Positions 3,384-49,533 of a stretch of DNA of 64,000 nt are shown here, in pieces. The notes below the pieces were generated by a model. That model was given only the letters and a program-made list of their open reading frames with translations. It was not told where the DNA came from and ran no database searches. Location of the stretch: NCBI RefSeq assembly GCF_000247605.1, contig NC_016894.1:434001-498000 (forward strand). The letters run 5' to 3'. A program made the position numbers and the translations under genes. Origin of the DNA: Acetobacterium woodii DSM 1030 (GTDB lineage Bacteria > Bacillota > Clostridia > Eubacteriales > Eubacteriaceae). Positions within the stretch are counted from its first letter, which is position 1; each line of letters starts with the position of its first letter.

Positions 3384-3401
3384 TAACCAAATATCAAAAA
3401 A

Positions 3402-3668: not shown

Positions 3669-3675
3669 TATGAAC

Positions 3676-3800: not shown

Positions 3801-3826
3801 GCGTAATAACGAAAGTGACGATCAAA

Positions 3827-3862: not shown

Positions 3863-3890
3863 GATCAAAATTCAGATAAGGAGAAATAAG

Positions 3891-30372: not shown

Positions 30373-30401
30373 TAGACAACATATATAAAGCAATATACAC
30401 T
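30373..30401 (+). promoter_or_regulatory. Putative promoter of the RiPP operon
   Basis: TAGACA (30373-30378), 17-base spacer, TACACT (30396-30401), about 60 bases before the first radical SAM gene. Both hexamers are one or two mismatches off consensus, and no operator is evident. Confidence 0.5.
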
Positions 30402-30459
30402 AAATAATAAAATCTTGATGATTGATAGCTCGAATATGAATACAATTTGGAGGCACATA

Positions 30460-33400
30460 GTGAAAACGATAAACTTAAAACTGATGCTTATTCATCGCGG
30501 CACCCGGACCCACTCAATCACGCAAATTGAACCCATTGGTCATATGTCATTAGCGGAAATGATGGCCAGCAAAGGGATTGATGTCGCAGTCTTTTCGGGA
30601 GAACTCTTAAGAGGGCTGGAATTTCTTGAAAAAACAGGTTGTGATCACAATACAGTGGTGGGTTTATACTGTGATTATGAAAATCAGTCGGCGGTTGAAA
30701 GTTTTACGAAGGAAATAAAAAGACGTTATGGCGCGATTGTTTTTGTTGGCGGTCCTCAAACCGTGGGTTTAGGGGAAGCATTTTTGCGAGCCAGTCAGGC
30801 CGATGGAATGATGCGTGGGGAAGGAGAGCTTTCGCTATATGAAGCAATCCATGCTATCCAAGATGAAGACGAAGCAAGATGGGAGACGATTGCCGGGATG
30901 TGTTCATTTCGAGAAGATGGCAGCTATTACGACAATGGCATCTATCCGGCGATTGAAAATCTTGATCAATTACCGATTATCACCGGCAAAATTAAATCGG
31001 CTCAACATCAGGGGATTAATCACATGGCAGTGATGTCAGGACGAGGGTGTCCTTTTCACTGTTCTTTTTGTTATGAAGGAGCAAACAGCAAAAATGTTCG
31101 GCGGCGGAGTGTCGAAAATGTAATGAAGGAAATCCGTTGTCGCTTAAAACAAAACCCCAAGGTTAAATATATTTTTTTTGGTGATGATACCTTCACTTTG
31201 GATAAGGAACGGGTACGAACTTTTTGCGAACAACTTAAAGAATTACGAAAAGAACACGATTTTGTCTGGTTTGCCGATGCCCATGTGAATATTGTCATCA
31301 AATATCCGGAAATCGTTAAAATGATGGTTGATGCCGGTTTGGTGCGGATGCAAATTGGCATTGAAAGCTGCAACCAGCACATCATTGATATTTATAATAA
31401 AAAAATCAAACGGGAAGGTCTTTTTGAAGTTATTGAGATCTGTAAAGAAGCTGGATTACCTCAGTTGGTTGGTAATATCATCATTGGTGGGGCATTGGAG
31501 ACCCGCGAAACGCTGGACTATACATTTAGTACGGTCAATGAAATGATTAAAGCCGGCCGCGGGATGGTGGAGGTGGTTAGCACCTTTTATATGCCTTTTC
31601 CGGAAACCGCGATGTCAAAAGATCCCCAAGCATTTGGTATTTTTGTGAAAGATGAGGCGGCCTTGACATCGGTGGGCGATTTTCCGGTGATTGAAACCAA
31701 AACCCTGAGCATTGAGGAAATCTGCGCCGCCCGAAATGAGTTTTTCGAAGAAAATGTTAAATTGATGCGAAAAATGCTCAGTGACGGAGAGATTCCTGAT
31801 GCGGCGATCATGGAAAGTTATACCCTTAGTGAAAAATACGGCCTCAGCGGTATGTGGCAGGGACTGGCCTATGCCCGTTATCCTTATTTTGATGCCCAGT
31901 ACAAGGCTCGAATTAGAGGCGATAAGTTGATCAACGATTATGATCCCGAATCCGTTTTTGAGGCCCATCCCCAGCGGATCGCCTTATTATCGCTAACCCC
32001 AGAATTGGCGGAAGAAATTCCGATTCTAAACGGATTTGTTTATTCACCTTTTGAATTTGAGGTATTAACCTATGCTTCCGGAAAACTGACGATGAATGAA
32101 ATGGCAACATTACTTTATCAAAAACATCAACAGCATTTTGAAAGTTTAGCGGAATTTAAAAAACATCTGCTGGAAACCATTAAAAAATTGGAAGCTGTTG
32201 GCATGTGTGTGTTGTCAGGCTCTTTAAAAGCCAATGAAGCAGATAAAGAATGGTTGAAACAGGAGAAAACGTTGGAAAATTTAGTAAAGAACAAGGTCAT
32301 CCTTTTTAAGTTATCGACCATCGGAATGGAAATTGCCGGTTTCAGCAGAAATGGTGCTTTTTTAGGAATTTATGGACTGGCAAGTTATCTTGATTCAAAG
32401 GGCTATGATGCGATTGTATGCGAATGTCGGCCTGACCAGGCAATGGATTTTTTGAAAAAATTTAATCCAGAAGAAATTTGTGGGATTGGCTTTTCCATTG
32501 ACTTTGAAAATAAACATGTGGCTAAAAAGGTCAGTGCGGCGATGACGGAAACCACCGGTATTCCGGTCCTTATCGGGGGGCCGGAAGCGATTTCGCTGGA
32601 TGAGGCATATCTGAGAGCGTCAAAGGCCTGCGCCATTGTTCGCGGGGAAGGCGAATTGGCAATGGTAGCGGTTCTGGAGGCCTTAAAAGAAAATAAAAAT
32701 CTGGATGATATTCCGGGGATTTTCTATATCAATGATAAAGGTGATTGTATCGATCGGGGCGAAGGCCCGGTGATTGAAAACCTTGATGAGCTGCCTTTTC
32801 CGGCTTATGATAAAAGTATAACCCCGATTGATTTTACCAGCCTTTATTTGATGAGCAGCCGGGGTTGCCCTTATCACTGCGTTTTTTGTCATGAAGGGGC
32901 CCTTAAACGGCCAATGCGGCAGCGAAGTGTAGCCAATATTATAGCTGAAATGAAATACTTTTTACTGAAATATCCGGAACTCAATTATTTTAAATTTTGT
33001 GACGATACGCTGGTCACTAATGCTAAATGGTTGGACGATTTTTGCCGGGAAGCAAAAGCGTTGCAGGCGGTTAAACCCTTTCAATTTTATTGTGAAGCCG
33101 ATGTGGTGTCTTTAAGCCGCCGACCGGAAGTATTAAAAGAGATGGTCGCAGCAGGGCTTAACCGGCTGCAAATCGGTATTGAATCGGTCGACCCGGAGAT
33201 GTTAAAGGTATACCGGAAGAATATTTCACCGGAAATGGTGGAAATCGTCGTTAAAGCTGCTTATGAGGCTGGCGTTCAACAGGTCTTTGGAGCACTGCTG
33301 GTGGGTGGTCCTTTTGAAAATCGCGAACATATTGAGAAAAATAAAGCCTTTGGTGCTAAGCTGTTGCGGCTCGGCCCGGGAATGATGGAAATTGCTCCGA

Positions 33401-34050
33401 GTATTGTGATGCCGTATCCAATGACGGATATCGGCTTGCATCCGGAAAAATATGGCTTAACGATTTATGATGAACAAGGCCTCGGTTCGATTTCGGATTA
33501 TCCGATTATGGATAGTGAAACCATGGATCGTCGGGAAATTATGGGCGCTTATCAGGAATATCTGCAGAGTTTTGTGGATGAGGTCAAAATCATGTTAAAC
33601 GCTGGTGAATTAAGCCATGAAGATATTTTGAGATGTTATAAAACCGCAATGGCGGTTAATGGTCCTAAATATTGGATTAATATCATTTCTCATCACAAAC
33701 CAACGTTGACTGCTTATTATACCATGTTGGCCAGAGCATCGGCCAGCCGTGTGATTGATGTAAAACCGGAGCAATTGCCTGACTGGCGTCCGCAGCGGAT
33801 GATTGAAATGTGGCGCGATGTCGATTTTTCTCAGGGCTTTCCGCTGTTATGGGGAGAAGCTTTGTCACCCTTTGAATATGAAATTATGAAATACAGCACC
33901 GGCAAAAGCACCATCGCGACGATTGCCGAGATACTTTATGAACGTTTTGGCAAACCATTTGGCGAAAGTCCTGACGAATTAATGGCACGGATCATTGAGA
34001 CGCTGAAAATTTTTGATAAAAAATATTGGCTTCTTGTGGTTCCATTCTAG
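30460..34050 (+). CDS. Tandem-fused double B12-binding radical SAM RiPP maturase
   Basis: A 1196-residue protein made of two full-length homologous units. Each has an N-terminal B12-binding Rossmann domain (GGPQTVGL and GGPEAISL loops, RGEGEL), a radical SAM domain with CxxxCxxC at Cys197/201/204 (GRGCPFHCSFCYEG) and Cys803/807/810 (SRGCPYHCVFCHEG), and a C-terminal PqqD-like winged-helix stretch (FEFEVLTYASGKLTMNEMA; FEYEIMKYSTGKSTIATIA). No DxHxxG cobalamin motif is visible, as in many enzymes of this class. The likely role is radical methylation or another C-H reaction on the precursor at 35809. Start GTG 30460 follows TGGAGG. Confidence 0.82.
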   Translation: MKTINLKLMLIHRGTRTHSITQIEPIGHMSLAEMMASKGIDVAVFSGELLRGLEFLEKTGCDHNTVVGLYCDYENQSAVESFTKEIKRRYGAIVFVGGPQTVGLGEAFLRASQADGMMRGEGELSLYEAIHAIQDEDEARWETIAGMCSFREDGSYYDNGIYPAIENLDQLPIITGKIKSAQHQGINHMAVMSGRGCPFHCSFCYEGANSKNVRRRSVENVMKEIRCRLKQNPKVKYIFFGDDTFTLDKERVRTFCEQLKELRKEHDFVWFADAHVNIVIKYPEIVKMMVDAGLVRMQIGIESCNQHIIDIYNKKIKREGLFEVIEICKEAGLPQLVGNIIIGGALETRETLDYTFSTVNEMIKAGRGMVEVVSTFYMPFPETAMSKDPQAFGIFVKDEAALTSVGDFPVIETKTLSIEEICAARNEFFEENVKLMRKMLSDGEIPDAAIMESYTLSEKYGLSGMWQGLAYARYPYFDAQYKARIRGDKLINDYDPESVFEAHPQRIALLSLTPELAEEIPILNGFVYSPFEFEVLTYASGKLTMNEMATLLYQKHQQHFESLAEFKKHLLETIKKLEAVGMCVLSGSLKANEADKEWLKQEKTLENLVKNKVILFKLSTIGMEIAGFSRNGAFLGIYGLASYLDSKGYDAIVCECRPDQAMDFLKKFNPEEICGIGFSIDFENKHVAKKVSAAMTETTGIPVLIGGPEAISLDEAYLRASKACAIVRGEGELAMVAVLEALKENKNLDDIPGIFYINDKGDCIDRGEGPVIENLDELPFPAYDKSITPIDFTSLYLMSSRGCPYHCVFCHEGALKRPMRQRSVANIIAEMKYFLLKYPELNYFKFCDDTLVTNAKWLDDFCREAKALQAVKPFQFYCEADVVSLSRRPEVLKEMVAAGLNRLQIGIESVDPEMLKVYRKNISPEMVEIVVKAAYEAGVQQVFGALLVGGPFENREHIEKNKAFGAKLLRLGPGMMEIAPSIVMPYPMTDIGLHPEKYGLTIYDEQGLGSISDYPIMDSETMDRREIMGAYQEYLQSFVDEVKIMLNAGELSHEDILRCYKTAMAVNGPKYWINIISHHKPTLTAYYTMLARASASRVIDVKPEQLPDWRPQRMIEMWRDVDFSQGFPLLWGEALSPFEYEIMKYSTGKSTIATIAEILYERFGKPFGESPDELMARIIETLKIFDKKYWLLVVPF

Positions 34051-34064
34051 AAAAGGGTAATAAA

Positions 34065-35780
34065 ATGAAGATACTGCTGTGTAATGTATCCCAAAAATAT
34101 CAGACCGATGCTCATGATTATGTAGGACTTTTTTACCTGGCCGGAGCTTTGGAAAAAAGTGGGTTTCAACCGCTCGTTTTTCATGGCAAACCGGAAAAAC
34201 TATTGGATGAAATAAAAAAAAATCAGCCCGCAGCGATTGGTTTTTCCGGTGATTTTGATAATGTTCAGTTGATCACCGAGTTGACATTGAAAATAAAAAA
34301 AGAATCGGATCTTCCGGTTATTGTGGGCGGTCCCCAGAGTCTTGGCCTAAAACAGCAATTTCTGGAAAAAAGCCAGGTTGATTATATTTTAAGAGGCGAA
34401 GGCGAAGAGTCATTACCGGAACTTCTAAAGGTAATTTTAAAAGGTGAAGGCGAGCTTGATAAGATTAAAGGACTGGTCTATCTTAAAGATGGCCGTGTTA
34501 TTGAGACGGCGGCTCCGGCGGTTATTGAAGATCTTGATGACTTGCCCTTGCCGGCTTATCATACCTCGTTACATAAAAACCATCACTACGGCAAGTTAAT
34601 TTTCACCGGGCGCGGTTGTCCTTACCAATGCGCTTATTGTGCGCCCAGTCCCGGAAAACAGAAAGTCCGACTGCGAAGTATTCCACTAGTGTTGGCAGAA
34701 ATCAAACTTAATTTAAAAAACAATCCGAATTTGAACTATCTGATTATTATGGATGATACGTTTACCCTCAACCGTGAGCGAATTGAAGAATTTTGCCGGG
34801 GGATGACAGAAATTCGGAAAGAGCGGGATCTGGTCTGGTATTGTGAATGTCATGTCGGGCGAATGAAAGACTGGATGGATATTCTGCCAACAATGATTGC
34901 GGCCGGACTCATACGGCTGCAAATTGGTATTGAATCCGGCGATCAGCAGGTTATTGATCAATACAACAAACATGTAAAGGTAACTGATATTATTGAATTT
35001 GTAAATTATGCCGCCGATTGTGGATTAACCCAAATTGCCACTAATTTTATCGTCGGTGGGCCGGTTGAAGAAGCCGGGGCAACCGTCAAACTGATCCAAA
35101 CGCTGATTGATAAAGCACCGGGAGTGATTGACATTATTACCGGTTTTTTAAGAGCTTATCCGGGCACCCAAATCCGTGAAAATCCGCAAAAATTTGATTT
35201 GCAGCTGCATGATGAAAGCGGCTTTCTTTCCGGCGATGATTATCCCTTTGTAACACCAAAAGCAAAAAGTCAGGATCAAATCATGAAGGATCGCCAGCAA
35301 CTCAATAAGGTGATTCGGCAAGGGATGCAAAAGAAAATTAAAAATCATGAATTAAAACAGGAAGCGGTAATGAAGCAATTTAAAGCCGCTCTAAAATATG
35401 GTATCAGGAGCCGCTGGTTTGAGGAAATTTCCGCCAATCCAAGAGCCTATGAATATTATTATGTCATTTATTTAAATGAGGGACAAGCCTTTACGGAAAC
35501 GCTGGATTTTACCAGAGATTATCCTCAGCGGACCTTTGAATTATGGCGCACCATGACCTTTACCGAAGGGTTCCCCAAACTCGATGGCATGGCACTTTCA
35601 CCACTGGAATATGAGTTACTGCTGCGCTGTGCCGGAAAAAGAAGTCTGAATGAGATAGAAACCGAGTTATATGGATTGTTCGGGGGTCCCTATCAAAACC
35701 AGATGGAATTCCATGGAAAATTAGTTGATATTTTATATCAATTTAATTTTAAATATTGGCTGACGCATTTTATGGTTTAG
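34065..35780 (+). CDS. B12-binding radical SAM RiPP maturase 2
   Basis: A 571-residue enzyme with the same plan as the first maturase: B12-binding domain at ~1-160 (GGPQSLGL, RGEGEESLPELL), radical SAM domain with Cys185/189/192 (GRGCPYQCAYCAPS), and a C-terminal PqqD-like end (MALSPLEYELLLRCAGKRS). In place of the YEG/FEG that follows the cluster motif in its relatives it has APS, a difference close to the active site that may mark a different reaction or position. It starts 14 bases after the tandem gene and is followed 28 bases later by the precursor gene. ATG 34065 follows AAAAGGG. Confidence 0.82.
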   Translation: MKILLCNVSQKYQTDAHDYVGLFYLAGALEKSGFQPLVFHGKPEKLLDEIKKNQPAAIGFSGDFDNVQLITELTLKIKKESDLPVIVGGPQSLGLKQQFLEKSQVDYILRGEGEESLPELLKVILKGEGELDKIKGLVYLKDGRVIETAAPAVIEDLDDLPLPAYHTSLHKNHHYGKLIFTGRGCPYQCAYCAPSPGKQKVRLRSIPLVLAEIKLNLKNNPNLNYLIIMDDTFTLNRERIEEFCRGMTEIRKERDLVWYCECHVGRMKDWMDILPTMIAAGLIRLQIGIESGDQQVIDQYNKHVKVTDIIEFVNYAADCGLTQIATNFIVGGPVEEAGATVKLIQTLIDKAPGVIDIITGFLRAYPGTQIRENPQKFDLQLHDESGFLSGDDYPFVTPKAKSQDQIMKDRQQLNKVIRQGMQKKIKNHELKQEAVMKQFKAALKYGIRSRWFEEISANPRAYEYYYVIYLNEGQAFTETLDFTRDYPQRTFELWRTMTFTEGFPKLDGMALSPLEYELLLRCAGKRSLNEIETELYGLFGGPYQNQMEFHGKLVDILYQFNFKYWLTHFMV

Positions 35781-35808
35781 CCAAAATATTATTAGAAGGA
35801 GAAAAAAC

Positions 35809-36081
35809 ATGAGTATTGATGGTGCAAAGGCATTGGCCGCAAAAGTATTAACCGATGAGGCGTTGGCAAAACAACTGGATGATGCGAAAACGGAAGCAGA
35901 ATTTGATGCCGTTGTTGCAAAATTAGGTTACAGCTGTACGGCAGCAGAATTTGATGCGGCTTTTAAAGAAGCACAGGCGAAACAACCAATCAGTGATGAT
36001 CAATTGGATCAGGCTGCCGGTGGGTTAAGTATTGTTGGTGTAGACTACGCATTTACAGCTACACAAACAGCAAGAGCTTAG
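35809..36081 (+). CDS. Nif11-type RiPP precursor peptide
   Basis: A 90-residue peptide. Residues 1-72 are an acidic, helical Nif11-like leader: MSIDGAKALAAKVLTDEALA, an AEFDAVVAKLGYSCTAAEFD middle and an ISDDQLDQAAGG end. The double glycine at 71-72 is the standard C39-peptidase site, leaving an 18-residue core LSIVGVDYAFTATQTARA. The core has no Cys or Ser-Cys pairs and only one Ser, so lanthionine chemistry is unlikely; Val, Ile, Ala and Thr fit radical modification. A strong AGAAGGAGAAAAAAC ribosome-binding site suggests high expression. It lies between maturases 2 and 3, inside the operon that also encodes a C39 exporter. Confidence 0.85.
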   Translation: MSIDGAKALAAKVLTDEALAKQLDDAKTEAEFDAVVAKLGYSCTAAEFDAAFKEAQAKQPISDDQLDQAAGGLSIVGVDYAFTATQTARA

Positions 36082-36090
36082 TTAAGTGAA

Positions 36091-36158
36091 GAAGGGGTTC
36101 TGCCCCTTCGAAGGTTGTCGGTGCTAGGTTATTTTTTTGACAGTCTTCGAAGGGGGAG
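36091..36158 (+). promoter_or_regulatory. Mutually exclusive hairpins between precursor and maturase 3
   Basis: Hairpin 1 is GAAGGGG (36091-36097) with CCCCTTC (36103-36109). Hairpin 2 is CCCCTTCGAAG (36103-36113) with CTTCGAAGGGG (36145-36155). They share the CCCCTTC strand and cannot coexist. Hairpin 2 buries part of GGGGGAG (36152-36158), the ribosome-binding site of the next gene (ATG 36168). This could set the precursor-to-enzyme ratio or act as a processing and stability element after the precursor stop codon. Confidence 0.65.
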
Positions 36159-36167
36159 AAAGAGACG

Positions 36168-37919
36168 ATGGAATTATTACTGATCAAATCGCACCGCTAT
36201 GTCAGCGGTTATATTCCCGGCAGTAATCTGGGAATGAATATCCTAACACAATTATTAACAAAAAACGGCTATCAGGTGGAGATGTTTCAGGGTTATGCCA
36301 AAGAAGCGCTAGATTATGTTGAAACGCTGATGGATACAAAAGAGAAACCCAAGATCATTGGGTTCTACTGCGATTTTAACAATATTCACTGGGTAAAGAC
36401 TTTTTCTCAGGAAGTGAAAAAACGGTTTCCCGAGGTGATTTTGTTGGCTGGAGGGCCGCAAACGGCGGGGATGGATGCGAATTTTTTAAATGAAACGGCC
36501 ATTAAAGCGGCTTGTATCGGTGAGGGTGAAGAAACGATTCTGGAATTGATGGATTTTTTCATCAATAAGGTGGGCAACCTCAAGGATATTAAAGGAATTA
36601 TTTTTTGCGATGAAACGGGAAATTTGGTGGAAACCGAACCCCGTAAGCCGCCGGAAAACCTGGATAATATTCCCTGGCCGGAGATAACGTTGACTAATGA
36701 CTATAAATATTACGGCCTGCTGCCGATCTTAACCGGACGGGGTTGTCCTTTTGGTTGTACCTTTTGTTATGAAGGGGCCAATGCCAAACGTGTACGGCGC
36801 CATTCAGTGGAGTCACTGATGCGTGAGATCCGGGGAAATTTCAAACGTGATCCGGGGATTAATTATATTAATTTTCTCGATGATACCTTTACCCTGGATC
36901 ATAAGCGGGTTAATCAAATCTGTGAAGAAGTCAAAAAAATTCGTCAGGAATATGATTTTGTCTGGTTTGCCAGCGCCCATATTTCGACCATTGATAAGCA
37001 TCGTGAAATGGCTAAAAATATGGCCGATGCCGGGCTTAAAAAGATTTTTTTTGGTTTGGAATCAGGAAGCGATCAGGTCTTAAAAAGCTATAATAAAAAA
37101 ATAACCCGAAAAATGGCGGTTGATGTGATTAATCATTGTGTTGAATCCGGGATTCATGGTATTTCCGGGAATATCATTATTGGCGGACCCCACGAAACGC
37201 GCGCAACTATCAACGAATCGGAAACGTTGGTCATGGAACTGCTGCATCATGCCCCCGGCCAGTTTGAGACGGCTTATTTTTCATTTCTCCCTTATCCTAA
37301 AACACCGATTACGCTTAATCCCGATAAATTTGGGATGGAAATTTATTCGGATTTGATCGATTGCTGCAACGAGGATATGCCGCTTTCCCGAACCAAAGAA
37401 TTGGATTTTATGGCGTTGCTAAACATTCGCTTACAGGCGAATAAACGGTTGCAAAATGAAATGCGCAAAATTTATGTTGACGGCAAAATCCCCGAAGCCG
37501 TTATTTTGGATTCGTATCGCTTGGGGAGCCGCTACGGGGTATTTACCAGATGGAATGATTATGTCTATAAAAATATTCCAATTGATGATGCCTACTGGAA
37601 AATGCGGGCTTCGGAGGAGTATGTGTTAAATCGTCAATTAGGTAGCCGTCATGAAGAAGCGATTGTTCAGCGGACCTTCGAATTATGGTTGTATACCGAT
37701 ATTAGCGGCGAAAAACCGCAGATTTTTGATAAAATTCTCGATCAAATCGACTATACCCTCTTGAAGCTTAGCAATGGTAAGTTGTCTAAAAGAGAAGTTT
37801 TGCAGTTGGCCCGAAAAACGCTTGATCCGCAGGGACAGGATACTGATTTTTACCCCCGGGCCGAGCGATCACTGAATAAGCTGGAGGAAAATAAGTGGAT
37901 TTTATACCGCAAACCATGA
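36168..37919 (+). CDS. B12-binding radical SAM RiPP maturase 3
   Basis: A 583-residue enzyme: B12-binding domain (GGPQTAGM, CIGEGEETILELM), radical SAM domain with Cys193/197/200 (GRGCPFGCTFCYEGANAKR), and a divergent PqqD-like C terminus (IDYTLLKLSNGKLSKREVLQ). Of the set it is closest in the motif region to the first half of the tandem protein. Its translation start lies just behind the two competing hairpins. Its last 25 bases overlap the next maturase. It is probably another C-methyltransferase or radical enzyme acting on the core. Confidence 0.82.
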   Translation: MELLLIKSHRYVSGYIPGSNLGMNILTQLLTKNGYQVEMFQGYAKEALDYVETLMDTKEKPKIIGFYCDFNNIHWVKTFSQEVKKRFPEVILLAGGPQTAGMDANFLNETAIKAACIGEGEETILELMDFFINKVGNLKDIKGIIFCDETGNLVETEPRKPPENLDNIPWPEITLTNDYKYYGLLPILTGRGCPFGCTFCYEGANAKRVRRHSVESLMREIRGNFKRDPGINYINFLDDTFTLDHKRVNQICEEVKKIRQEYDFVWFASAHISTIDKHREMAKNMADAGLKKIFFGLESGSDQVLKSYNKKITRKMAVDVINHCVESGIHGISGNIIIGGPHETRATINESETLVMELLHHAPGQFETAYFSFLPYPKTPITLNPDKFGMEIYSDLIDCCNEDMPLSRTKELDFMALLNIRLQANKRLQNEMRKIYVDGKIPEAVILDSYRLGSRYGVFTRWNDYVYKNIPIDDAYWKMRASEEYVLNRQLGSRHEEAIVQRTFELWLYTDISGEKPQIFDKILDQIDYTLLKLSNGKLSKREVLQLARKTLDPQGQDTDFYPRAERSLNKLEENKWILYRKP

Positions 37920-39598
37920 TCGCTAAACCGAAAGTTTTACTGGTCTACACTCAGCGGATGATTCGCGGGCGGACTTTTGAAATGATTGAAAACCTCGGTA
38001 TTTTAACCTTGGCGGCCCAACTCAATGCCAATGGCTTTGATGCTAAAGCCTACACCGGAATTACCACCGATGCCGTGAAAGTGATTGAAACAAACAAAGA
38101 TGATCTGTTTGCGGTTTGTTTTTATTGTGATTTTGATAATCGTTCGGCCGTGGCGTCGATCATAAAATATTTAAAAAAAAATAAAAAATTTTATGTGCTG
38201 CTGGGCGGGCCTCAAACCCTGCATATGACAGAGCTTGATCTGAAGACCTATCAAGCCGATGCAATCATAAAAGGAGAAGCGGAAGAAAGCTTATTAATCT
38301 GGTTGAATGCCAAAATAAAGGGAACCGCAGATTTCGTCCCGGGAGAAATTCGGCCGGGACAAAATTTTGATTACGTTTATCTGGAAGCGTTCTCAAACTA
38401 TGAATTACCACGAAATGAAGATGTTCTGAATTATCAGGAACGACCGCTGCTATCGGTGATTACCGCCAGAGGTTGTCCTTATCGGTGTGCTTTTTGTTTT
38501 GAAGGGGGTAATTCCAAGCAGCTGAGAATGCGGACGGCGGAAGCGGTACTCAATGAAATAGAAGTGCGTTTAAAAAACAGTTATCGTCCCCGTTATCTGT
38601 TTTTTTGTGATGATACCTTTACGACCAACCCCGTGCGGCTAAAAAAGATTTTGACCGGACTAAAAAAACTGCGGCAAAATTATGATTTTGTGTGGTTCTG
38701 TGAAGGTCACTCCGGCTTTTTAGTCAAACACCCGGAACTTATCAGCGAAATGATTGACAGCGGGATGGTACGGATGCAAATTGGGATGGAATCGGGGGTG
38801 GAAGCGGTACTGACAGCCTATGGGAAACAGGCAAAACCAGCCGATATCAGAAAAGTGGTGGAAATCTGTTATCGCGAAGGATTACCCCAGCTAACTGGCA
38901 ATTATATTATTGGCGGAGCCTTTGAAAATCAGCACACGCTGGAACAGACTACCCACGAAGTATTGGAATTATTGGATTTGGCACCGGGGATGTTGGATAT
39001 CTCGACTACTTTTATAATGCCCTTGCCGGGGACTCAGATTTATCAGCATCCCGAAAATTTTGGAATAGTTTTGGAAGACCGCGAATGCCTCACCGCGATG
39101 GAAGATTTTCCGGTTAATCATACCGAGGAATTATCACTACCGGAAGTTTGTATGGGACGTTCCCGTTTTATTACCGCGGTTTCCAATAAAATGAAAGCCC
39201 AATTTGAAAAAGATCTGATCGACCCAAAACGGATCAGAGCCGATTTTAATCTGGCTTTTAAGTATGGAATTGCTGCCGGTTATTTAAAATTTATTTACGG
39301 CAAAAATAAACTAATGGTTCAATATTATCAAAAACTGTTTGAATTCAAGGGCCTTTTAAAAGAATGGCAAGAATTAAATGAGTACCAAAAAAAGACCTGG
39401 ATTATTCATCGGAGCGCGGATTTTTCGCTGCTTGATTTACAAACGACTAGTTCTGACGAGATTGAAATTCTGAGTTATTCGGGAAGGTTTAACAGCGTCG
39501 AGATGGCTGAAAAACTAAAACTGTCAGCAATCGAAATGGATAAACAATTAGAAAAAATGAGCAGGCGTTACTTAATTTTATTTGCGGAGTTTATTTAG
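37895..39598 (+). CDS. B12-binding radical SAM RiPP maturase 4
   Basis: A 567-residue enzyme: B12-binding domain (GGPQTLHM, KGEAEESLLIWL), radical SAM domain with Cys194/198/201 (ARGCPYRCAFCFEGGNSKQ), and the shortest, most degenerate PqqD-like tail (IEILSYSGRFNSVEMAEKL). Start GTG 37895 lies 5 bases after TGGAGGAAA inside the previous gene, so the two are translationally coupled. A 109-base gap to the next gene is the largest within the operon. Confidence 0.8.
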   Translation: MDFIPQTMIAKPKVLLVYTQRMIRGRTFEMIENLGILTLAAQLNANGFDAKAYTGITTDAVKVIETNKDDLFAVCFYCDFDNRSAVASIIKYLKKNKKFYVLLGGPQTLHMTELDLKTYQADAIIKGEAEESLLIWLNAKIKGTADFVPGEIRPGQNFDYVYLEAFSNYELPRNEDVLNYQERPLLSVITARGCPYRCAFCFEGGNSKQLRMRTAEAVLNEIEVRLKNSYRPRYLFFCDDTFTTNPVRLKKILTGLKKLRQNYDFVWFCEGHSGFLVKHPELISEMIDSGMVRMQIGMESGVEAVLTAYGKQAKPADIRKVVEICYREGLPQLTGNYIIGGAFENQHTLEQTTHEVLELLDLAPGMLDISTTFIMPLPGTQIYQHPENFGIVLEDRECLTAMEDFPVNHTEELSLPEVCMGRSRFITAVSNKMKAQFEKDLIDPKRIRADFNLAFKYGIAAGYLKFIYGKNKLMVQYYQKLFEFKGLLKEWQELNEYQKKTWIIHRSADFSLLDLQTTSSDEIEILSYSGRFNSVEMAEKLKLSAIEMDKQLEKMSRRYLILFAEFI

Positions 39599-39707
39599 TT
39601 TAAGGACGATCAAAAATAACCGTTTAAAGTTTGAAATCATGAAACAGTGCATAAAAGGCATAACACTTAGGCAATTACCTGATTATCGGAAATGTAAGGA
39701 GAGGGAT

Positions 39708-40850
39708 ATGAAAAAACACCTGAAGATCGTATCGATATTATTAATCGGCAGTCTGCTTTGTTTTGGTTGCACCGCTAAAACAGATAATACCACCCCACTG
39801 TCAGTGGATGTAGTTTATCCATTTTCTGAGGATTATAGTGCTTCATTTAAAAATGGTATCGAGTTAGCAGTCAAAGAAATTAATGAACAGGGTGGGATCC
39901 TCAATCGGACCATTGAAATTAATTACGATGATGACGGTAATAATACCAATACAGCGGTGGAATTAGCGACGATGATCGCCGAAAAAGAGGGTTTTCCGAT
40001 TGTCATTGGCCATCGCAGCACCGATGATGTGTTAAAGGTGGCAAGTATTTATAATCAAAATAATAAAATGTTATTCGCTCCGATTATAGCCAGTTCAAAA
40101 TTGAATTTGACGGGAAATGAAGGGGCTTATCTCTGCGCCCCTTCAGAAGATACCATGGCCGATGAGATGGTTCAAAGTATGGGAACTCAGGGAATCAGCA
40201 AGATTGCCATTGTACATTCAGCTGGTAACACCTACGGAAAAGATTATGTCCAAAAAATTGAAGAGCATGCCAAACAAGCTGGAATTGAAATTGTTGATGC
40301 TGTTTCTTATCTGCCGAATCTTGATTATTTCCGATTATATGTGAAAAAATGGGACAGCATGGGAGCGCAGGCGATTGTTAACGCCTGTGTCGGCAAGGAT
40401 ATTACGACCTTTTATGAATATCTGGACAAGACCGGCAATACCCGGCCCATTTTTGCCAGTTATGATATTGAAATTCAGCCCTATAGTATTCCCCAGAGCA
40501 TGATAAACCGGACGCAGGTAACCAGTTATTTTAATAATACGGCGACATCTGGTCCAGAGGCGGCATTTATTCAAGACTATCAGAAAACCTATGGACAAAA
40601 CCCCGATTTACCGGCAGCACAGGCTTATTTAGCAATGCATCTGGCGGCGGATGTGGTCAATAAGGCACAAAGCTTGGATGTCCAGACCATTAAAAAGGTG
40701 TTGGCTGAAAACAGTTTTGATACAGTGTATGGCCGTTTGAATTTTGATAAACGACTGATCAATGGCATTCCCGTCATGCAAAAGATCTATGTTAATAATC
40801 AATTGGTGCCCAGAAATAATCCTACGGGAGGAGGAACAAACGGTGAGTAA
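39708..40850 (+). CDS. Branched-chain-amino-acid-type substrate-binding lipoprotein
   Basis: A 380-residue type-1 periplasmic-binding protein (Peripla_BP_6, LivJ-like) with a lipoprotein signal (FGC, Cys21). Family features are YPFSEDYSASFKNGIELAVKEINEQGG, a VIGHRSTDDVLKVA segment, and IAIVHSAGNTYGKDYV. It sits between maturases and exporter and shares the operon; the adaptor gene overlaps its end by 8 bases. No Liv permease genes are present, so it is not part of an amino-acid importer here. It may bind the product or a ligand for immunity or sensing; that is inference. Start ATG 39708 follows AAGGAGAGGG. Confidence 0.82.
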   Translation: MKKHLKIVSILLIGSLLCFGCTAKTDNTTPLSVDVVYPFSEDYSASFKNGIELAVKEINEQGGILNRTIEINYDDDGNNTNTAVELATMIAEKEGFPIVIGHRSTDDVLKVASIYNQNNKMLFAPIIASSKLNLTGNEGAYLCAPSEDTMADEMVQSMGTQGISKIAIVHSAGNTYGKDYVQKIEEHAKQAGIEIVDAVSYLPNLDYFRLYVKKWDSMGAQAIVNACVGKDITTFYEYLDKTGNTRPIFASYDIEIQPYSIPQSMINRTQVTSYFNNTATSGPEAAFIQDYQKTYGQNPDLPAAQAYLAMHLAADVVNKAQSLDVQTIKKVLAENSFDTVYGRLNFDKRLINGIPVMQKIYVNNQLVPRNNPTGGGTNGE

Positions 40851-41667
40851 ATCTATTTTTCGCAATAAAGAGGATAAAGCCAGTCCCAAAAGCGAGCATT
40901 CAGCATTGATGACGGTCATTGGGCCGAGCAATCTACTGATTTTATTGGGCATCACAATTTTTCTTATTTGTGTCGTTGTTTTTTCCATTACGGTACCCAT
41001 TAACATGACCGTGATCATGGATGCTTTGGTTTCCTATGGCGAAGGAACGGTTGATGTAGTGATTGAAAACGAAGGCGTTTTGTCACAAGTCGCGGTTTCT
41101 AATGGCGATTATGTTCAAAGGGGTGATTTGCTGGGTGTAATTACCACTCAAGAGATATCGGCGCAGCTTTTAAATGGGTCGCTATTGACCGTCGATGAAC
41201 AAAGTAAAATTAAGCGCCAAACGATGATTGTTGCGACCGAAAGTGGCGTGGTTTCAGGTCTGAATGTTCAGGATGGCGCATATCTTTCGAAAAATAGCAC
41301 CTTATGCCAAATCGTGAAAAGAGAAAATGAAAATACCACGGTAGTGGTTCTTGCTTATACCAACCAAGAAGGGGCTGTCAATGTTAAAAAGGGCGATAAG
41401 GTGTTCGTTGCCTTGGAATCGGCCCCGAGTGACAAGTATGGGTATTTAAGAGGGATTGTTCGAAATGTCCAACCGAGTGGTTTGGCTCAGGACGCGACGA
41501 AGTCAACCGAGATAGAAATTATTATTGATCCCAAGGTTGATGATCAGGGCAATTATATCTGGACCAAAGAAAACAATGGTTTTAGCGGTGAAATTGCCGC
41601 CGGAACATATGGCAGCGCGACCATTTTTACCGATAAGTTGTATCTTGTTGACTTGATTATCTCTTAG
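40843..41667 (+). CDS. HlyD-like adaptor of the peptide exporter
   Basis: A 274-residue membrane-fusion-type protein: cytoplasmic start, one transmembrane helix (LLILLGITIFLICVVVFSI), then biotinyl/lipoyl-like halves (VSNGDYVQRGDLLGVI and VQDGAYLSKNSTLCQIV) as in NHLM-type bacteriocin secretion proteins. It links the two ABC exporters to the outer face. GTG 40843 follows GGGAGGAGG and overlaps the binding-protein gene, so they are translated together. Confidence 0.78.
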   Translation: MSKSIFRNKEDKASPKSEHSALMTVIGPSNLLILLGITIFLICVVVFSITVPINMTVIMDALVSYGEGTVDVVIENEGVLSQVAVSNGDYVQRGDLLGVITTQEISAQLLNGSLLTVDEQSKIKRQTMIVATESGVVSGLNVQDGAYLSKNSTLCQIVKRENENTTVVVLAYTNQEGAVNVKKGDKVFVALESAPSDKYGYLRGIVRNVQPSGLAQDATKSTEIEIIIDPKVDDQGNYIWTKENNGFSGEIAAGTYGSATIFTDKLYLVDLIIS

Positions 41668-41684
41668 AAAGGCGGTAAGGACTC

Positions 41685-43886
41685 ATGACGAAATCAGAAA
41701 CAGAGAAAAATCGGGATGAGCAAAAAAAGCTGCCGAAAATAGCAAAGGTGCCGGTGGTGCTGCAAATGGAAGCAGTCGAATGTGGCGTTGCCTCGCTGTC
41801 GATGATTTTAGCTTATTATGGACGTTATGAAACGCTGGAAACCTTGCGGATTGACTGCGGTGTTTCCCGGGACGGGGTAAAAGCTGGCAATATTGCCAGA
41901 ACTGCCAGAAACTATGGTCTCGCAGCTCAGGGTTTTGTTTGTACAGTGGATAAGTTAAAAGAAATGGAAATGCCGGTAATTATCCACTGGGATTACAGTC
42001 ATTTTGTGGTGCTGGAAGGATTCAAAAAAGATAAGGTTTATATATGTGACCCCGCTTCGGGCCAACGGGTGATTGTCAAAGAAGAATTGGAACAAATGTT
42101 TACCGGGGTCGTTATTGAATCACGGCCGGGGCCAGCTTTTAAACAGGCCGGGGAACCGCCCAATGTCTGGAAAGCCTTGTTTAAACGACTTTCGCAAACG
42201 GGCGTATCGCCGTTAATTTATGCGATGATGCTAGGTATTTTATTGGTTATTCCGGGGTTGGTTATTGCGAATTATGCAAAAATATTTGTCGATTATTATT
42301 TAAATAATACTGAAAAATTTGATATCATGATTTTTGTTATGATCCTGTTAAATACTGTGTTTCTGCAGGCGATACTCAATTGGCTGAAGGAAATTGCCTT
42401 GGTGCGAATGGAAAGTTATATTGCCATTAATAGTGCTGGAGCTTATTTACACCACGTTCTGCGCTTACCGGTCGAGTTTTTTAATCAGCGGCAGTCGGGG
42501 GATATTAACAGCCGGATGCAGAGTATCAATACGGTGGCATCGGCATTATCCAGTAATCTGACTCGCATTATGGTGAATCTGGTTACGGCTTGTTTGTATC
42601 TGATTTTGCTTTTTCAGTATAGCGTTCAACTAACCGTAATCGGAATTGGGATTACCGCGATCAATGTCTTTTTACTGCAATATACGGCCAAAAAGAATGC
42701 TGATAATAACCGGGTGTTGCTTCAGTATCAGGGTAAATCGATTGGGTGGATTATGGTGAATCTTAAATCGATTGAAACCATTAAATCGATTGGCGAAGAG
42801 GATAATTTTTTTAATCGCATTGCCGGATTGGGTGCCGAAACCCTCGAAGTGGAACAGCGCATGGGTCGGATGGAAGCGATTATTGCGGTGCTGCCAACGC
42901 TCCTGACCAGTGTTTTAACGGCCTTGATCTTCATGTTTGGCAGTGAATACGTGTTAATGGGAACCATGACGATTGGGACCTTTGTAGCTTTTAATGCTCT
43001 GATGACCGGATTTACCCAGCCAATGAGTGAACTGGTTAGTACCAGTGCCTCATTACAGGGGATGATTGCCGATATTCAGCGGCTCGATGATGTCGAAAAA
43101 TATCCCGAAGATATTGCTTTGGAATCCGAAAAGATTTCATTGGATGGCTTTGATTGTGATCAGTTGCAAGGGAAAATCGAAATTAAAGATCTCACCTTTG
43201 GTTATAACAAATTGTCAGAGCCGATTATTCAGGGCTTGAATTTGAAGCTTAATGCCGGCGGCTCCATTGCATTGGTGGGGTCGTCAGGTAGCGGTAAATC
43301 AACGATTGCTAAAATGATTACGACCCTTTATCAACCCTGGAGTGGGCAAATTTGCATTGATGGGATTGATATCAAAGCGATACCGGCGGAACTGCGTTAT
43401 AACACGATGAGCTCGGTCGATCAGGAGATTGTGATGTATTCGGCGACCGTGCTGGATAATATTACCATGTGGGACGAAACTATTTCGGTGGAAGATGTGA
43501 TCAGGGCGACAAAAGATGCCTGTATTTATGAAGATATCCTGGCTTTACCGAACGCCTTTGATCATGTCTTAAGTGAGGGTGGAAAAAACTTGAGCGGCGG
43601 GCAGCGGCAACGACTCGAAATTGCTCGGGCACTCTGCAAAAATCCCAAAATACTGATTATGGATGAAGCCACCAGTGCGCTGGATACGGGAACCGAAGCG
43701 GCGGTTACTGAAAATATCAAACGCCGCGGGATCAGTACCATTCTGGTGGCTCATCGCTTATCGACGATTCGGGATTGTGATGAAATCATTGTGTTAAAGT
43801 GTGGTGCCGTCGCTGAAAGAGGCACCCATGACGAACTGATGGCTTTGGATGGAGAATACGCAAATCTGATCAGAACTGAGGGATAG
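41685..43886 (+). CDS. C39-peptidase ABC exporter (leader-cleaving)
   Basis: A 733-residue NHLM-type exporter. The C39 peptidase has catalytic Cys33 (QMEAVECGVASLSM), His106 (YSHFVVLEGF) and Asp122 (CDPASG). Six transmembrane helices follow, then an ATPase with Walker A GSSGSGKST near residue 532, signature LSGGQRQR and Walker B ILIMDEATSALD. The peptidase is complete and should cut the precursor after Gly71-Gly72. It starts 17 bases after the adaptor and ends 3 bases before the second exporter gene. Confidence 0.92.
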   Translation: MTKSETEKNRDEQKKLPKIAKVPVVLQMEAVECGVASLSMILAYYGRYETLETLRIDCGVSRDGVKAGNIARTARNYGLAAQGFVCTVDKLKEMEMPVIIHWDYSHFVVLEGFKKDKVYICDPASGQRVIVKEELEQMFTGVVIESRPGPAFKQAGEPPNVWKALFKRLSQTGVSPLIYAMMLGILLVIPGLVIANYAKIFVDYYLNNTEKFDIMIFVMILLNTVFLQAILNWLKEIALVRMESYIAINSAGAYLHHVLRLPVEFFNQRQSGDINSRMQSINTVASALSSNLTRIMVNLVTACLYLILLFQYSVQLTVIGIGITAINVFLLQYTAKKNADNNRVLLQYQGKSIGWIMVNLKSIETIKSIGEEDNFFNRIAGLGAETLEVEQRMGRMEAIIAVLPTLLTSVLTALIFMFGSEYVLMGTMTIGTFVAFNALMTGFTQPMSELVSTSASLQGMIADIQRLDDVEKYPEDIALESEKISLDGFDCDQLQGKIEIKDLTFGYNKLSEPIIQGLNLKLNAGGSIALVGSSGSGKSTIAKMITTLYQPWSGQICIDGIDIKAIPAELRYNTMSSVDQEIVMYSATVLDNITMWDETISVEDVIRATKDACIYEDILALPNAFDHVLSEGGKNLSGGQRQRLEIARALCKNPKILIMDEATSALDTGTEAAVTENIKRRGISTILVAHRLSTIRDCDEIIVLKCGAVAERGTHDELMALDGEYANLIRTEG

Positions 43887-43889
43887 AAG

Positions 43890-46037
43890 ATGGCAAAAAA
43901 ATTAGAAGAAATGAGACAGCTGAATAAGAAGTATAATGATAGTGCCAAAAAAGCTTTCGACAGCGTCTTGACGACTAAAAATTCAGCTGTGTCGGTAGAA
44001 GATAATCCGCTCATCGCGGCGGTTATCAAGGTCGCCGAAGCCATGAAAATTACCGTCACTATCCCTCCGTTAAGACAATTATATAGTGGGGCTGATCAAT
44101 TTAAACTAATTGCCAACGAATCGGGTTTTCGTTATCGACAGGTGGAACTTAAGGGTGATTGGTACAAAAAGGATAATGGCCCGATGCTTGGTTTTACCGC
44201 GGCGGGAGAGGCCGTTGCGTTGATTCCGAGATCCTCATCCCGCTATGAATGCCAAACCTATGATGGTGCGGCAAAAGTAGTTAATGCGGATTCAGTTTTT
44301 GCCAAGGCTTATGTTTTTTATCCGCCTTTACCGAAGGAACCGGTTAATTTTCGTGAAATGGTTAAATTGGGATTAAAGTTGATCAAACGGCGCGATTTGA
44401 TCTGGACGATTGTTTTAGCGGTAGTTTCAGCATTTTTATCGCTGCTGCCGGCAATGGCCATGCAGGAGACATTTAATGTCTGGATTCCTCAAAACCAGTC
44501 GATCACGATTTTAGTGGTAGGTTTTATATTGGTGGCGGTAGCCGTCAGCCGGGGTTTATTTACGATGGTTCAAAGTATTTGTATTTTACGAATCCAGGGC
44601 AAATTGTCGATTTTGCAAAATTCTTTGTTAGATAAACTGTTGTCGTTGCCAGCTTCGTTTTTTAAACAGTTTTCGTCAGGCGCTCTGGCAATGCGGGCCA
44701 CCGGATTTGCGATGATTCAGAAAATATTATCGGTTAATGTGATTACGATGATTTTCACCAGCACTTTTTCGATTGTTAATGGACTATATATTTTTACGGT
44801 TAATGCAACCATCGGTTTGATTGCGATGGCACTAACCGCCGTCAGCGTGGCGATCACCCTGGTGATTGGCAAAATGCAGATGACGTGTCAGCGGGTGTCC
44901 CTGGAAATGTCTAATGATATTTCGGGGTCGGTTTTTGAAATGATTACTTCGGTTTCTCGGATTCGGGTAGCCGGAGCTGAAAATCGCGTTTATTTAAAAT
45001 GGGTCAGGGACTATGCCAGACAACGGAAGGTGGAATATAAAAAAGGACAGCTAACGGCTGTGCTGCGACTGGCGACCATCGCTCTACCGACGCTGTCGAT
45101 GGTGGTTATTTATTATTATGTCAGTGTGAACAATATTTCTTCCGGAGGATTTGTCGCGATTAATTCGGCCTTTCTGGTTTTTATATCATCATTATTGGGG
45201 TTGGTTCAAACGCTCATTTCGGTTAATAGTGTGGTTCCCCAATATGAAAATACCAAACCCATTATTAATGGCGTTCCGGAAGTGGACAATTTTAAAACGT
45301 CTCCGGGGAAAATTTCCGGAGATATTGAAATCAAGCATTTAAATTTTTCTTATTATCAAGGCGGAGCCAACATTTTGGACAATATTTCGCTTAATATCAA
45401 ACACGGGGAGTACGTGGCTGTGGTGGGGGCTTCCGGCAGCGGAAAATCGACGCTGCTGCGATTATTGCTGGGTTTTGAAAAACCCACTTCGGGGAGTATT
45501 TATTGTGGTGGATTTGATCTTGAAAGCGTTGATATTCGAGAAATTAGAAAGCAAATGGGCGTGGTTCTTCAGGACAGTCAACTAATTCCCGGGGATATTC
45601 TTTCTAATATTGCTGGTTCAAAAAAGAAATTGACCGAAGACGAGGTTTGGGAAGTCCTTAAAAAGGTTGGGATGGAAGAAGAAATCAGAGAAATGCCCAT
45701 GGGTCTTAAAACCATGGTGGCAGAGGGGGCGGGAACCTTATCGGGGGGACAACGCCAGAAACTGTTGATTGCCAGAGCCATTGCCGCCAATCCGGCGATC
45801 CTCTTTTTTGATGAAGCGACCAGTGCGCTTGACAATCGCTCCCAGAAAGTGGTATCGGAGAGCATGAAAAAAATGCCCGCAACGCGGCTTGTCATTGCCC
45901 ATCGGCTCAGTACTATTATGGATTGTGACCGGATTCTGGTTTTGGAAAAAGGTAATATCGTCGAAGAAGGCACTTATGAAGAGCTGATGAAAAACGAGTC
46001 CTATTTTTATAACTATGCTAAAAGACAGTTGGTCTAA
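43890..46037 (+). CDS. Second ABC exporter of the RiPP system, no active peptidase
   Basis: A 715-residue NHLM ABC2-type protein. The N-terminal ~150 residues (ADQFKLIANESGFRYRQVEL, FTAAGEAVALIP) take the place of the peptidase and lack a catalytic CG motif. Transmembrane helices and an ATPase with Walker A GASGSGKST, signature LSGGQRQK and Walker B ILFFDEATSALD follow. It probably forms a heterodimer with the C39 exporter. It is the last gene of the operon, ahead of a strong terminator. Confidence 0.9.
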   Translation: MAKKLEEMRQLNKKYNDSAKKAFDSVLTTKNSAVSVEDNPLIAAVIKVAEAMKITVTIPPLRQLYSGADQFKLIANESGFRYRQVELKGDWYKKDNGPMLGFTAAGEAVALIPRSSSRYECQTYDGAAKVVNADSVFAKAYVFYPPLPKEPVNFREMVKLGLKLIKRRDLIWTIVLAVVSAFLSLLPAMAMQETFNVWIPQNQSITILVVGFILVAVAVSRGLFTMVQSICILRIQGKLSILQNSLLDKLLSLPASFFKQFSSGALAMRATGFAMIQKILSVNVITMIFTSTFSIVNGLYIFTVNATIGLIAMALTAVSVAITLVIGKMQMTCQRVSLEMSNDISGSVFEMITSVSRIRVAGAENRVYLKWVRDYARQRKVEYKKGQLTAVLRLATIALPTLSMVVIYYYVSVNNISSGGFVAINSAFLVFISSLLGLVQTLISVNSVVPQYENTKPIINGVPEVDNFKTSPGKISGDIEIKHLNFSYYQGGANILDNISLNIKHGEYVAVVGASGSGKSTLLRLLLGFEKPTSGSIYCGGFDLESVDIREIRKQMGVVLQDSQLIPGDILSNIAGSKKKLTEDEVWEVLKKVGMEEEIREMPMGLKTMVAEGAGTLSGGQRQKLLIARAIAANPAILFFDEATSALDNRSQKVVSESMKKMPATRLVIAHRLSTIMDCDRILVLEKGNIVEEGTYEELMKNESYFYNYAKRQLV

Positions 46038-46101
46038 AAAAAGAGAAAGAGCCAATCATTAAAAGTTGGTTTGGTTTAAACGATCGAAAAACGGCAAAAT
46101 T

Positions 46102-46149
46102 AAAACCAGAAGAATCCTGCCGAGGAGATTGCAGGATTTTTCTGGTTTT
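46102..46149 (+). terminator. Intrinsic terminator of the RiPP operon
   Basis: AACCAGAAGAATCCTGC pairs with GCAGGATTTTTCTGGTT, followed by T's. It also faces the convergent rubrerythrin gene. Confidence 0.85.
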
Positions 46150-48507: not shown

Positions 48508-49377
48508 TTAAAGGTCGAGCTGATTTTTAAGGTTATGTTTTTCGGCATAGAGTTTTTTATCGGCTTCGATCATAACCTTTTCAAGGGTGGTTTCATCTTT
48601 TAGCTGATATAATCCAAAACTGGCGCTGACATGGATGAGCGTGTCATTATAATTAATTTCAATAGTGTCTAATAGTTGCCTTAATCGAGTAATCAGCATG
48701 AGCGCATCAGAATAGTTGGTATTGGACAGCAGCAAGACAAATTCATCACCGCCGAAGCGACCAAAAAGATCAAAACTCCGAATACTTTCATTAATCGTTT
48801 GGGCGACCATTTTTAAAACCAAATCTCCGGCAAAATGGCCAAAGGTATCGTTGATGCATTTAAATTTATCAATGTCGATCATGGCAACACAAAGATCCGT
48901 TTGAAACCGGGTGGCTTTCGAAAATTCAATATTAGCTAATTGTTCAAAATATTGTCGGTTATAGATCTGGGTTAAGCCATCTTTTTGAGCGAGATCTCTT
49001 AGTTTCTGGCCTTCAATCTTATCAGTGACATCCATGCAGCTGCCAATATATCCGGCAAATTGATGGTGATGATCATAATAGGGGACGCCTCGGTCATTGA
49101 TCCATCGATAAACACCATCATATCGTTTAAGGCGGTATTCCATTTCAAAAGCTTCCTCTTTAGCAAAAGCGTCTAAATAGATCTTTAGGCAGAGATCATA
49201 ATCATCGGGATGGAGACCTTCGGCCCAACCGGTACCAATTTCTGCGGCCATGGTTTTACCGGTAAAATTAAGCCAGGTGGTGTTAAAGTAATTACATAAG
49301 GTGTCGGTACCAGCTCGCCAGATCATATTAGGGGATGATTCGACAATGATGCGATATTGATTATTATCCAGTTTCAT
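48508..49377 (-). CDS. PAS-GGDEF diguanylate cyclase
   Basis: A 289-residue protein with an N-terminal PAS domain (~1-120; FNTTWLNFTGKTM, a PAC end at GYIGSCMDVTDK) and a GGDEF domain (active-site FGGDEFVLLL; DIDKFKCINDTFGH). It makes cyclic di-GMP. No RxxD inhibitory site is obvious. No transmembrane segment is present, so it senses a cytoplasmic signal. I start it at ATG 49377, which follows GGGAGG. Confidence 0.92.
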   Translation of the reverse strand: MKLDNNQYRIIVESSPNMIWRAGTDTLCNYFNTTWLNFTGKTMAAEIGTGWAEGLHPDDYDLCLKIYLDAFAKEEAFEMEYRLKRYDGVYRWINDRGVPYYDHHHQFAGYIGSCMDVTDKIEGQKLRDLAQKDGLTQIYNRQYFEQLANIEFSKATRFQTDLCVAMIDIDKFKCINDTFGHFAGDLVLKMVAQTINESIRSFDLFGRFGGDEFVLLLSNTNYSDALMLITRLRQLLDTIEINYNDTLIHVSASFGLYQLKDETTLEKVMIEADKKLYAEKHNLKNQLDL

Positions 49378-49533
49378 GGACAGACCTCCCAAAAATTTAA
49401 ATTGAACACAGCTATAGATTAATATATGCCCATATTAAAATGATTTATGCAATGATTCGGTTTTACGATTTAATTATATCTCTTTGGACTTTTTAAATAT
49501 TATGCTAAAAAAGGGCCGTTTCAATAGGAATAA

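Follow-up and report, generated by a model that had tools for sequence, protein, structure and literature searches.

Several pathways are known in which cobalamin (B12)-dependent radical S-adenosylmethionine (SAM) enzymes take part in the maturation of ribosomally synthesized and post-translationally modified peptides (RiPPs). The radical SAM methyltransferases of the bottromycin pathway are B12-dependent, and that pathway has other maturation enzymes too; the polytheonamide pathway has two B12 radical SAM enzymes, an epimerase and others, acting on a long core; and proteusins are defined by a nitrile-hydratase-type leader together with a PoyD epimerase. Here we describe a cluster of nine same-strand genes in Acetobacterium woodii DSM 1030 (30460-46037, + strand, of a window of 64,000 nucleotides, contig NC_016894.1 positions 434,001 to 498,000), in the order A1, A2, precursor, A3, A4, LivJ-like, HlyD-like, ABC1 and ABC2, in which four maturase proteins carry five B12-binding radical SAM modules around a Nif11-type precursor. 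We consider it reasonably likely that this locus makes one dedicated ribosomal peptide product, representing a RiPP class in which each enzyme would make one fixed change on one decapeptide.

The nine cluster proteins were scanned with Pfam and NCBIfam models at curated cut-offs. A1 (1211 aa) contains two Radical_SAM and two B12-binding stretches, and A2, A3 and A4 contain one of each, the B12-binding domain of A4 lying under the Pfam cut-off (27.7 vs 32.1 bits). All five modules carry CxxxCxxC, and a Rossmann B12-binding domain, putatively cobalamin-binding, precedes the radical SAM barrel as in class-1 cobalamin-dependent radical SAM enzymes. The precursor was above the TIGR03798 cut-off (45.6 vs 32.3 bits) and matched Pfam Nif11 (PF07862, E 3.9e-11), ABC1 was above TIGR03796 (901.2 vs 853.3) and ABC2 above TIGR03797 (767 vs 709.4). 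A sequence-only reading of this DNA had proposed that five B12 radical SAM modules, a Nif11 precursor and two NHLM-type exporters, one of them with a C39 peptidase, make up a RiPP cluster, and these matches bear it out: ABC1 has the C39 domain, and none was detected by Pfam in ABC2. The adaptor that it had called HlyD stood in part, matching PF16576 and PF13437 but remaining under the TIGR03794 cut-off (58.7 vs 156.2 bits), which the neighbouring adaptor in Sporomusa meets at 306.3.

None of the four maturase proteins was above the cut-off of any NCBIfam model among the matches listed. They scored 132.6 (A1), 80.8 (A2), 83.9 (A3) and 25.8 (A4) against TIGR03975 (cut-off 281.85), and 197.1, 115.9, 101.8 and 52.5, respectively, against the ApyD model NF050148 (cut-off 750), which was the second-best NCBIfam match for A1 and A2. 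The proteusin features were also missing: the leader is of Nif11 type and no epimerase was named among the nine cluster proteins, among the matches listed. No description of this pathway was found in the literature searched, among the matches listed, in keeping with the suggestion that a five-module cluster is undescribed. A paper on the RiPPs of anaerobes (PMC4289311) does not mention Acetobacterium, and the terms bacteriocin, Nif11 and radical SAM are absent from the main text of acetogen expression papers.

The start of the core hardly varies. LS[IL]VGVDY[AT]F opens it in all 26 main precursors, and in 23 of them the motif is exactly LSIVGVDYAF. The window's core, LSIVGVDYAFTATQTARA, had been called aliphatic, a description that does not fit, as it also holds D, Y, F, Q and R. 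Across ten comparison loci, identity to the window was 50-59 of 72 residues in the leader, 9-10 of 10 in the first ten core residues and 2-8 of 8 in the tail. Relative to two loci (L011 and L014), the window's precursor has no amino-acid changes despite synonymous divergence (dS) of 0.36 and 0.44, the maturases there having ratios of non-synonymous to synonymous substitution (dN/dS) of 0.05-0.11. Extra precursors, found in four loci, do vary in the core: those of L005 and L006 have LSIVGVDYAF with a different tail, L006 also encodes ITLVGIDYPF and L022 TSMIGFDYPF, and a second precursor beside the standard one in L044 (L044:10071-10313) has a divergent core (ARGIDFYENSIW / GGARGIDFYENSIW) in which GIDFYEN replaces DYxF.

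We then asked how widely the unit recurs. A scan of one genome per species with exact-peptide patterns, which detects close relatives only, returned 21 loci encoding close relatives of A3. All four maturases were present at at least 90% length in 22 of 27 entries, and the other five entries were cut by contig or fetch ends; the four maturases accompany the precursor in 22/22 sufficiently complete loci. Bacillota loci have the order A1-A2-precursor-A3-A4, and the four Synergistota loci having all genes (L018, L020, L021, L042) have precursor-A3-A4-A1-A2. Maturases were under purifying selection, with dN/dS of 0.05-0.21 in computable pairs (comparisons with L018 were saturated). Because the gene set recurs across genera and its maturases are under purifying selection, it is not a chance reading.

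The distribution is patchy. In the window's family, the precursor was found in 17 of 40 genomes, comprising 17/19 Acetobacterium and 0/21 others, and in the window's class in 3 of 391, all Acetobacterium. Searches of the phylum of L018 (Synergistota) gave 5/185, four being previously found hosts, and those of the classes of Sporomusa malonica and Formimonas gave 1/300 and 1/43, each the starting host. With A3 at E 1e-100, 2 of 398 genomes of the phylum were hit (the window's own and a Bacillota genome of another family, G1267), and in the order of a Thermoclostridium metagenome-assembled genome (MAG) 1 of 33, itself. The precursor is therefore sporadic outside Acetobacterium, occurring in Sporomusa, Formimonas, Thermoclostridium and Synergistota, and this patchiness makes transfer among anaerobes likely, in a direction that the two trees we built leave unsettled. 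Five loci in which some maturase had no full-length copy (L007, L008, L019, L024, L043) were left out of both trees. In the tree rooted with the G1267 locus (L052), Sporomusa, Formimonas and Thermoclostridium grouped together (support 98) inside the main Acetobacterium group, with nesting support of 64-85, and one Acetobacterium (G013) fell outside that group.

The deepest comparison comes from L052, in which the A3 relative is 37% identical. Here, six separate B12 radical SAM genes stand in a row (R1-R6; L052:7322-18914), with a Nif11 precursor without Gly-Gly between R3 and R4. Five of these genes pair with A1a, A1b, A2, A3 and A4 at 37-42% identity by best score and tree. The two halves of A1 score best against separate genes (A1a with R4 at 39%, A1b with R2 at 40%) and A1 therefore looks like a fusion of two genes, as judged by protein similarity; A1a and R4 pair weakly (support 0.606; R1 402 bits vs R4 421). 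R1 groups with A4/R6 and has no clear counterpart in the window. The L052 precursor is above the TIGR03798 cut-off and has the core LTFVGIDYAFVGVKTSSG with the motif LTFVGIDYAF, so that Y-x-F is retained in 26/26 main precursors and in L052. Nothing argues more strongly for a fixed product than the survival of the core motif over such a distance. A search with the G1267 counterpart of A3 in the class of G1267 gave 1/82, itself. No TIGR03796 match was found at E 1e-100 in the G1267 genome, which is rated 99% complete. A papain-family (Peptidase_C1) gene adjoins the cluster on the opposite strand (L052:6026-7240), and our guess is that this protease might substitute for C39 at L052.

Export and accessory genes vary far more than the maturases do. 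The LivJ-like gene was seen in Acetobacterium-type loci only, and Gly-Gly and NHLM exporter genes adjoin the unit in those Acetobacterium-type loci long enough to show them. Beside the unit, Sporomusa carries an NHLM pair and adaptor of its own, with an RND-type adaptor; Formimonas has an NHLM exporter upstream; and in L018 and L042/L043 the NHLM genes lie on the other strand, with outer-membrane efflux genes nearby. No exporter was present in the first fetched flank of L017, L020 or L021, and in each case one above the cut-off was found elsewhere in the genome, that of L020 on the same contig. Of seven other hosts tested, five have a TIGR03796 exporter above the cut-off, nearby or elsewhere; of two metagenome-assembled genomes, in which absence is weak evidence, TIGR03796 had no match in G427 (L019) at E 1e-100, and in G430 (L024) it had a partial one under the cut-off. 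With LivJ dropped, and exporters replaced or missing from the immediate surroundings, the maturase set looks like the constant part and export like an interchangeable add-on. Neither the LivJ-like protein, seen with the unit in Acetobacterium-type loci only, nor the window's NHLM exporter can thus be retained as an essential or defining part, as both had been taken to be. Since the core stays fixed and the leader, tail, exporter and accessory genes do not, the product is most likely matched to a conserved partner, with a signal, carrier or cofactor-like role suggested by conservation alone, rather than being a diversifying antibiotic. Separately, the window's genome contains a second TIGR03796 exporter above the cut-off (G000:C1:3926852-3928984), and its sole TIGR03798-passing precursor is that of the cluster.

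To relate the modules to enzymes of known structure, we modelled A3 with AlphaFold2 (predicted local distance difference test score, pLDDT, 89); the best Foldseek matches were MgmA, CysS, TsrM, OxsB and TokK. The C-terminal domain of A2, the only such domain modelled alone, shows some resemblance to RiPP recognition elements (RREs) and is a candidate for their winged-helix fold. A D-x-x-N loop is common to the modules where TokK and CysS carry tryptophan under cobalt: the modules have N, D or E at the site of TokK Trp76 / CysS Trp75, and the invariant Asp of the loop aligns with Asn186 of OxsB (residue numbers counted by hand). The meaning of these sub-cobalt residues in TokK, CysS and OxsB, which is not a methyltransferase, is treated in passages of PMC13331322. 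A loop that differs from those of the methyltransferases TokK and CysS would speak against uniform methylation, a comparison that is suggestive only, as few structures are known.

We propose that the leader is bound by RRE-like domains at the C-termini of the modules and that each module would then alter L-[ST]-x-V-G-[VI]-D-Y-x-F in one fixed way at a specific position. We expect a mixed outcome: most modules would add methyl groups to carbons that are not activated (in Val, Ile or Leu, or at the beta position of Tyr/Phe), and one or more steps would be of another kind, for example a Tyr-x-Phe cross-link. In A. woodii, C39 would then cleave after Gly-Gly and the NHLM pair would export the product. 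A bolder version is speculative and, in our judgment, probably too strong: a class defined by cobalamin radical SAM chemistry alone, in which five to six paralogues turn L[ST]xVG[VI]DYxF into a fixed polycyclic or hypermethylated decapeptide that is exported and acts in B12-rich anaerobes as a signal, carrier or redox molecule, conserved much as a vitamin is.

Other accounts of the chemistry have to be weighed against this proposal. The sequence-only reading had pointed to a possibly C-methylated peptide. That all five modules are C-methyltransferases, so that the product simply gains some five methyl groups or more, is possible but doubtful. C-methylation is the job of ApyD, PoyB, PoyC and the bottromycin radical SAM enzymes, the authors of BipD call methyl transfer the majority function in a passage of PMC12707348, the ApyD model ranks second among the NCBIfam matches of A1 and A2, and the Val, Ile, Leu, Tyr and Phe of the core are possible methylation sites, but no maturase reaches the TIGR03975 or ApyD cut-off and the residues at the TokK Trp76/CysS Trp75 and OxsB Asn186 positions hint at other chemistry. 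Heavy C-methylation is possible. That every module methylates is unproven, since aryl cross-linking is also known for B12 radical SAM enzymes and Tyr-x-Phe is retained in the core. About equally doubtful is a scheme in which one module joins Tyr and Phe of D-Y-x-F into a three-residue aryl ring, with methylation or oxidation around this ring left to the others. B12 radical SAM enzymes are reported to form biaryl bonds within aromatic-x-aromatic motifs (in parts of PMC12707348 and PMC12257519), which would agree with the constancy of Y-x-F, but PbsB is proposed in a section of PMC12257519 to require phenolic rings and Phe is not phenolic, no MNIO-type hydroxylase was named in the family scans of the nine cluster proteins, and the second L044 precursor lacks DYxF.

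As for the role of the product, two results weigh against our reading of one fixed, dedicated peptide: the dN/dS of the whole precursor (0.089 vs Sporomusa, 0.173 vs Formimonas) is not below that of most enzymes, and an unrooted tree puts the trio of Sporomusa, Formimonas and Thermoclostridium between Acetobacterium and the Synergistota/G013 side, so that the trees disagree on nesting. We find it unlikely that the product is a narrow-spectrum bacteriocin-type antibiotic whose conservation reflects recent horizontal spread. The sporadic distribution and the nesting of the trio in the L052-rooted tree are what such spread would leave, but that nesting is unsettled because of its placement in the unrooted tree; recent spread is also too shallow an account, because the core motif is still present in L052, whose maturases are about 40% identical, and no immunity protein was named in the family scans of the nine cluster proteins, although unnamed ones are possible. 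Least probable is that the peptide is the precursor of an internal redox cofactor of the pyrroloquinoline quinone (PQQ) or mycofactocin kind, with export secondary: conservation of the core across phyla, the lack of Gly-Gly in L052 and of TIGR03796 matches in its genome, and the exporter results for G427 and G430 agree with it, but Gly-Gly and NHLM genes adjoin the unit in Acetobacterium-type loci, Sporomusa has an exporter beside the unit and most other hosts tested have one above the cut-off. Mobile-element origins were also tried and rejected: viral contigs gave 132 pattern-matching stretches of which none was confirmed by tblastn, three plasmid records matched A3 at 25-27% identity over 58-64% of its length, and three of the nine cluster proteins, searched against PHROGs, had two weak matches whose function is not known.

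Features of the A. woodii cluster, with positions in the 64,000-nucleotide window.
Feature	Position	Strand	Evidence and remarks
A1, two fused B12-binding radical SAM modules	30460..34050	+	Pfam; CxxxCxxC twice; GTG start inferred
A1a and A1b, modules of A1	~30460-32235 and ~32236-34050	+	Module border within A1 approximate
A2, B12-binding radical SAM module	34065..35780	+	Pfam Radical_SAM and B12-binding above cut-off; ATG start inferred
Precursor, Nif11 leader, cleavage motif AAGG, core LSIVGVDYAFTATQTARA	35809..36081	+	TIGR03798; PF07862; conserved core
A3, B12-binding radical SAM module	36168..37919	+	Pfam above cut-off; AlphaFold2 model
A4, B12-binding radical SAM module	37895..39598	+	Pfam Radical_SAM 64.2 bits; B12-binding below Pfam cut-off
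LivJ-like periplasmic-binding-type protein	39708..40850	+	PF13458 E 6.3e-46; ATG start inferred by eye
HlyD-like adaptor	40843..41667	+	PF16576, PF13437; GTG start inferred, frame opens 40762
ABC1, NHLM exporter with C39 peptidase	41685..43886	+	TIGR03796; Peptidase_C39 E 2e-34
ABC2, NHLM exporter	43890..46037	+	TIGR03797; Pfam ABC_tran, ABC_membrane

Every gene previously named was found open on the + strand, and several genes overlap or almost do so. GTG 30460 is most likely the A1 start because GGAGG lies at 30449-30453 and a stop falls within the aligned stretch upstream in six relatives; each of the inferred starts at 30460, 39708 and 40843 has a ribosome-binding-like stretch before it, and the A2 reading frame opens at TTG 34026. 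The LivJ-like protein is probably a lipoprotein, judging from a lipobox picked out by eye. The left border once placed at 30373 had to be given up: it is a promoter-like match only, and such matches are about as frequent in shuffled sequence (44 vs mean 35.2, sd 6.2), so a promoter there was rejected. The flanking genes are seemingly unrelated, with DUF1697 upstream and, downstream on the opposite strand, rubrerythrin and a RelA/SpoT-like gene. Across the whole window, Rfam gave only a T-box leader above the gathering score, far from the cluster (3395-3778).

Several side observations were made in and around these loci. In L022, a MAG contig, A1 lies in two frames (L022:678-4234; matches 678-779 and 776-4234), owing either to a frameshift or to an error of assembly. 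Fragments that repeat the final 26-32 codons of A2 occur between tandem precursors (L006:9024-9119 and L022:6298-6375), a possible trace of precursor-cassette duplication. GGDEF diguanylate cyclase genes occur near the cluster in three hosts (window 48508-49392; L015:2258-3856; L016:13706-15286), which may be chance, such genes being common. The Thermoclostridium MAG has a separate Nif11 cluster with a PoyD-type epimerase above the cut-off and NHLM-like exporter genes (L048:7177-9044 and 413-5100), and an Acetobacterium genome (G006, L049:6965-13720) has a Nif11-like precursor adjoining NHLM-like exporter genes and a radical SAM protein that resembles YydG (137 bits, against a cut-off of 300).

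With five uncharacterised B12 radical SAM enzymes (six in one host) and one short fixed substrate, the system offers a compact test of the division of labour among such enzymes, and of which sub-cobalt residue decides between methylation and other chemistry. That Acetobacterium and Synergistota alike retain the core suggests that this model acetogen, which is of industrial interest, makes a conserved small molecule not yet described. Each of the closest described systems shares part of this arrangement. The NHLM/Nif11 systems of Haft et al. 2010 combine a Nif11 leader with NHLM exporters, as here, but use TOMM or lanthionine enzymes, and 'radical SAM' does not appear in the main text of that paper (PMC2887384). 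ApyD of the aminopyruvatide pathway is likewise a B12 radical SAM enzyme, has an RRE and acts on Tyr near Asp (GYLYD), but it is a lone B12 radical SAM enzyme beside a P450, an MNIO and a methyltransferase, and A1 reaches 197 bits against its cut-off of 750. Compared by description only, BipD and PbsB are B12 radical SAM enzymes acting on an aromatic-x-aromatic core, forming a biaryl bond usually after MNIO hydroxylation according to parts of PMC12707348 and PMC12257519, whereas no MNIO was named among the nine proteins here. Polytheonamide PoyB and PoyC are also B12 radical SAM RiPP maturases in the account given in part of PMC11285071, PoyC having the motif Cx7Cx2C in place of the CxxxCxxC of the A. 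woodii modules. In bottromycin, as the relevant part of PMC11285071 describes, BotRMT1-3 methylate Phe, Val and Pro, so that, much as proposed here, a single short core is the substrate of several radical SAM C-methyltransferases, but with three enzymes rather than five modules and a follower peptide rather than a Nif11 leader; given these three, the earlier figure of one or two B12 radical SAM proteins per known cluster is too low. Set beside these systems, the locus is a real RiPP pathway built from known parts, in which the frozen core and the fixed five-module set are more notable than the number of enzymes.
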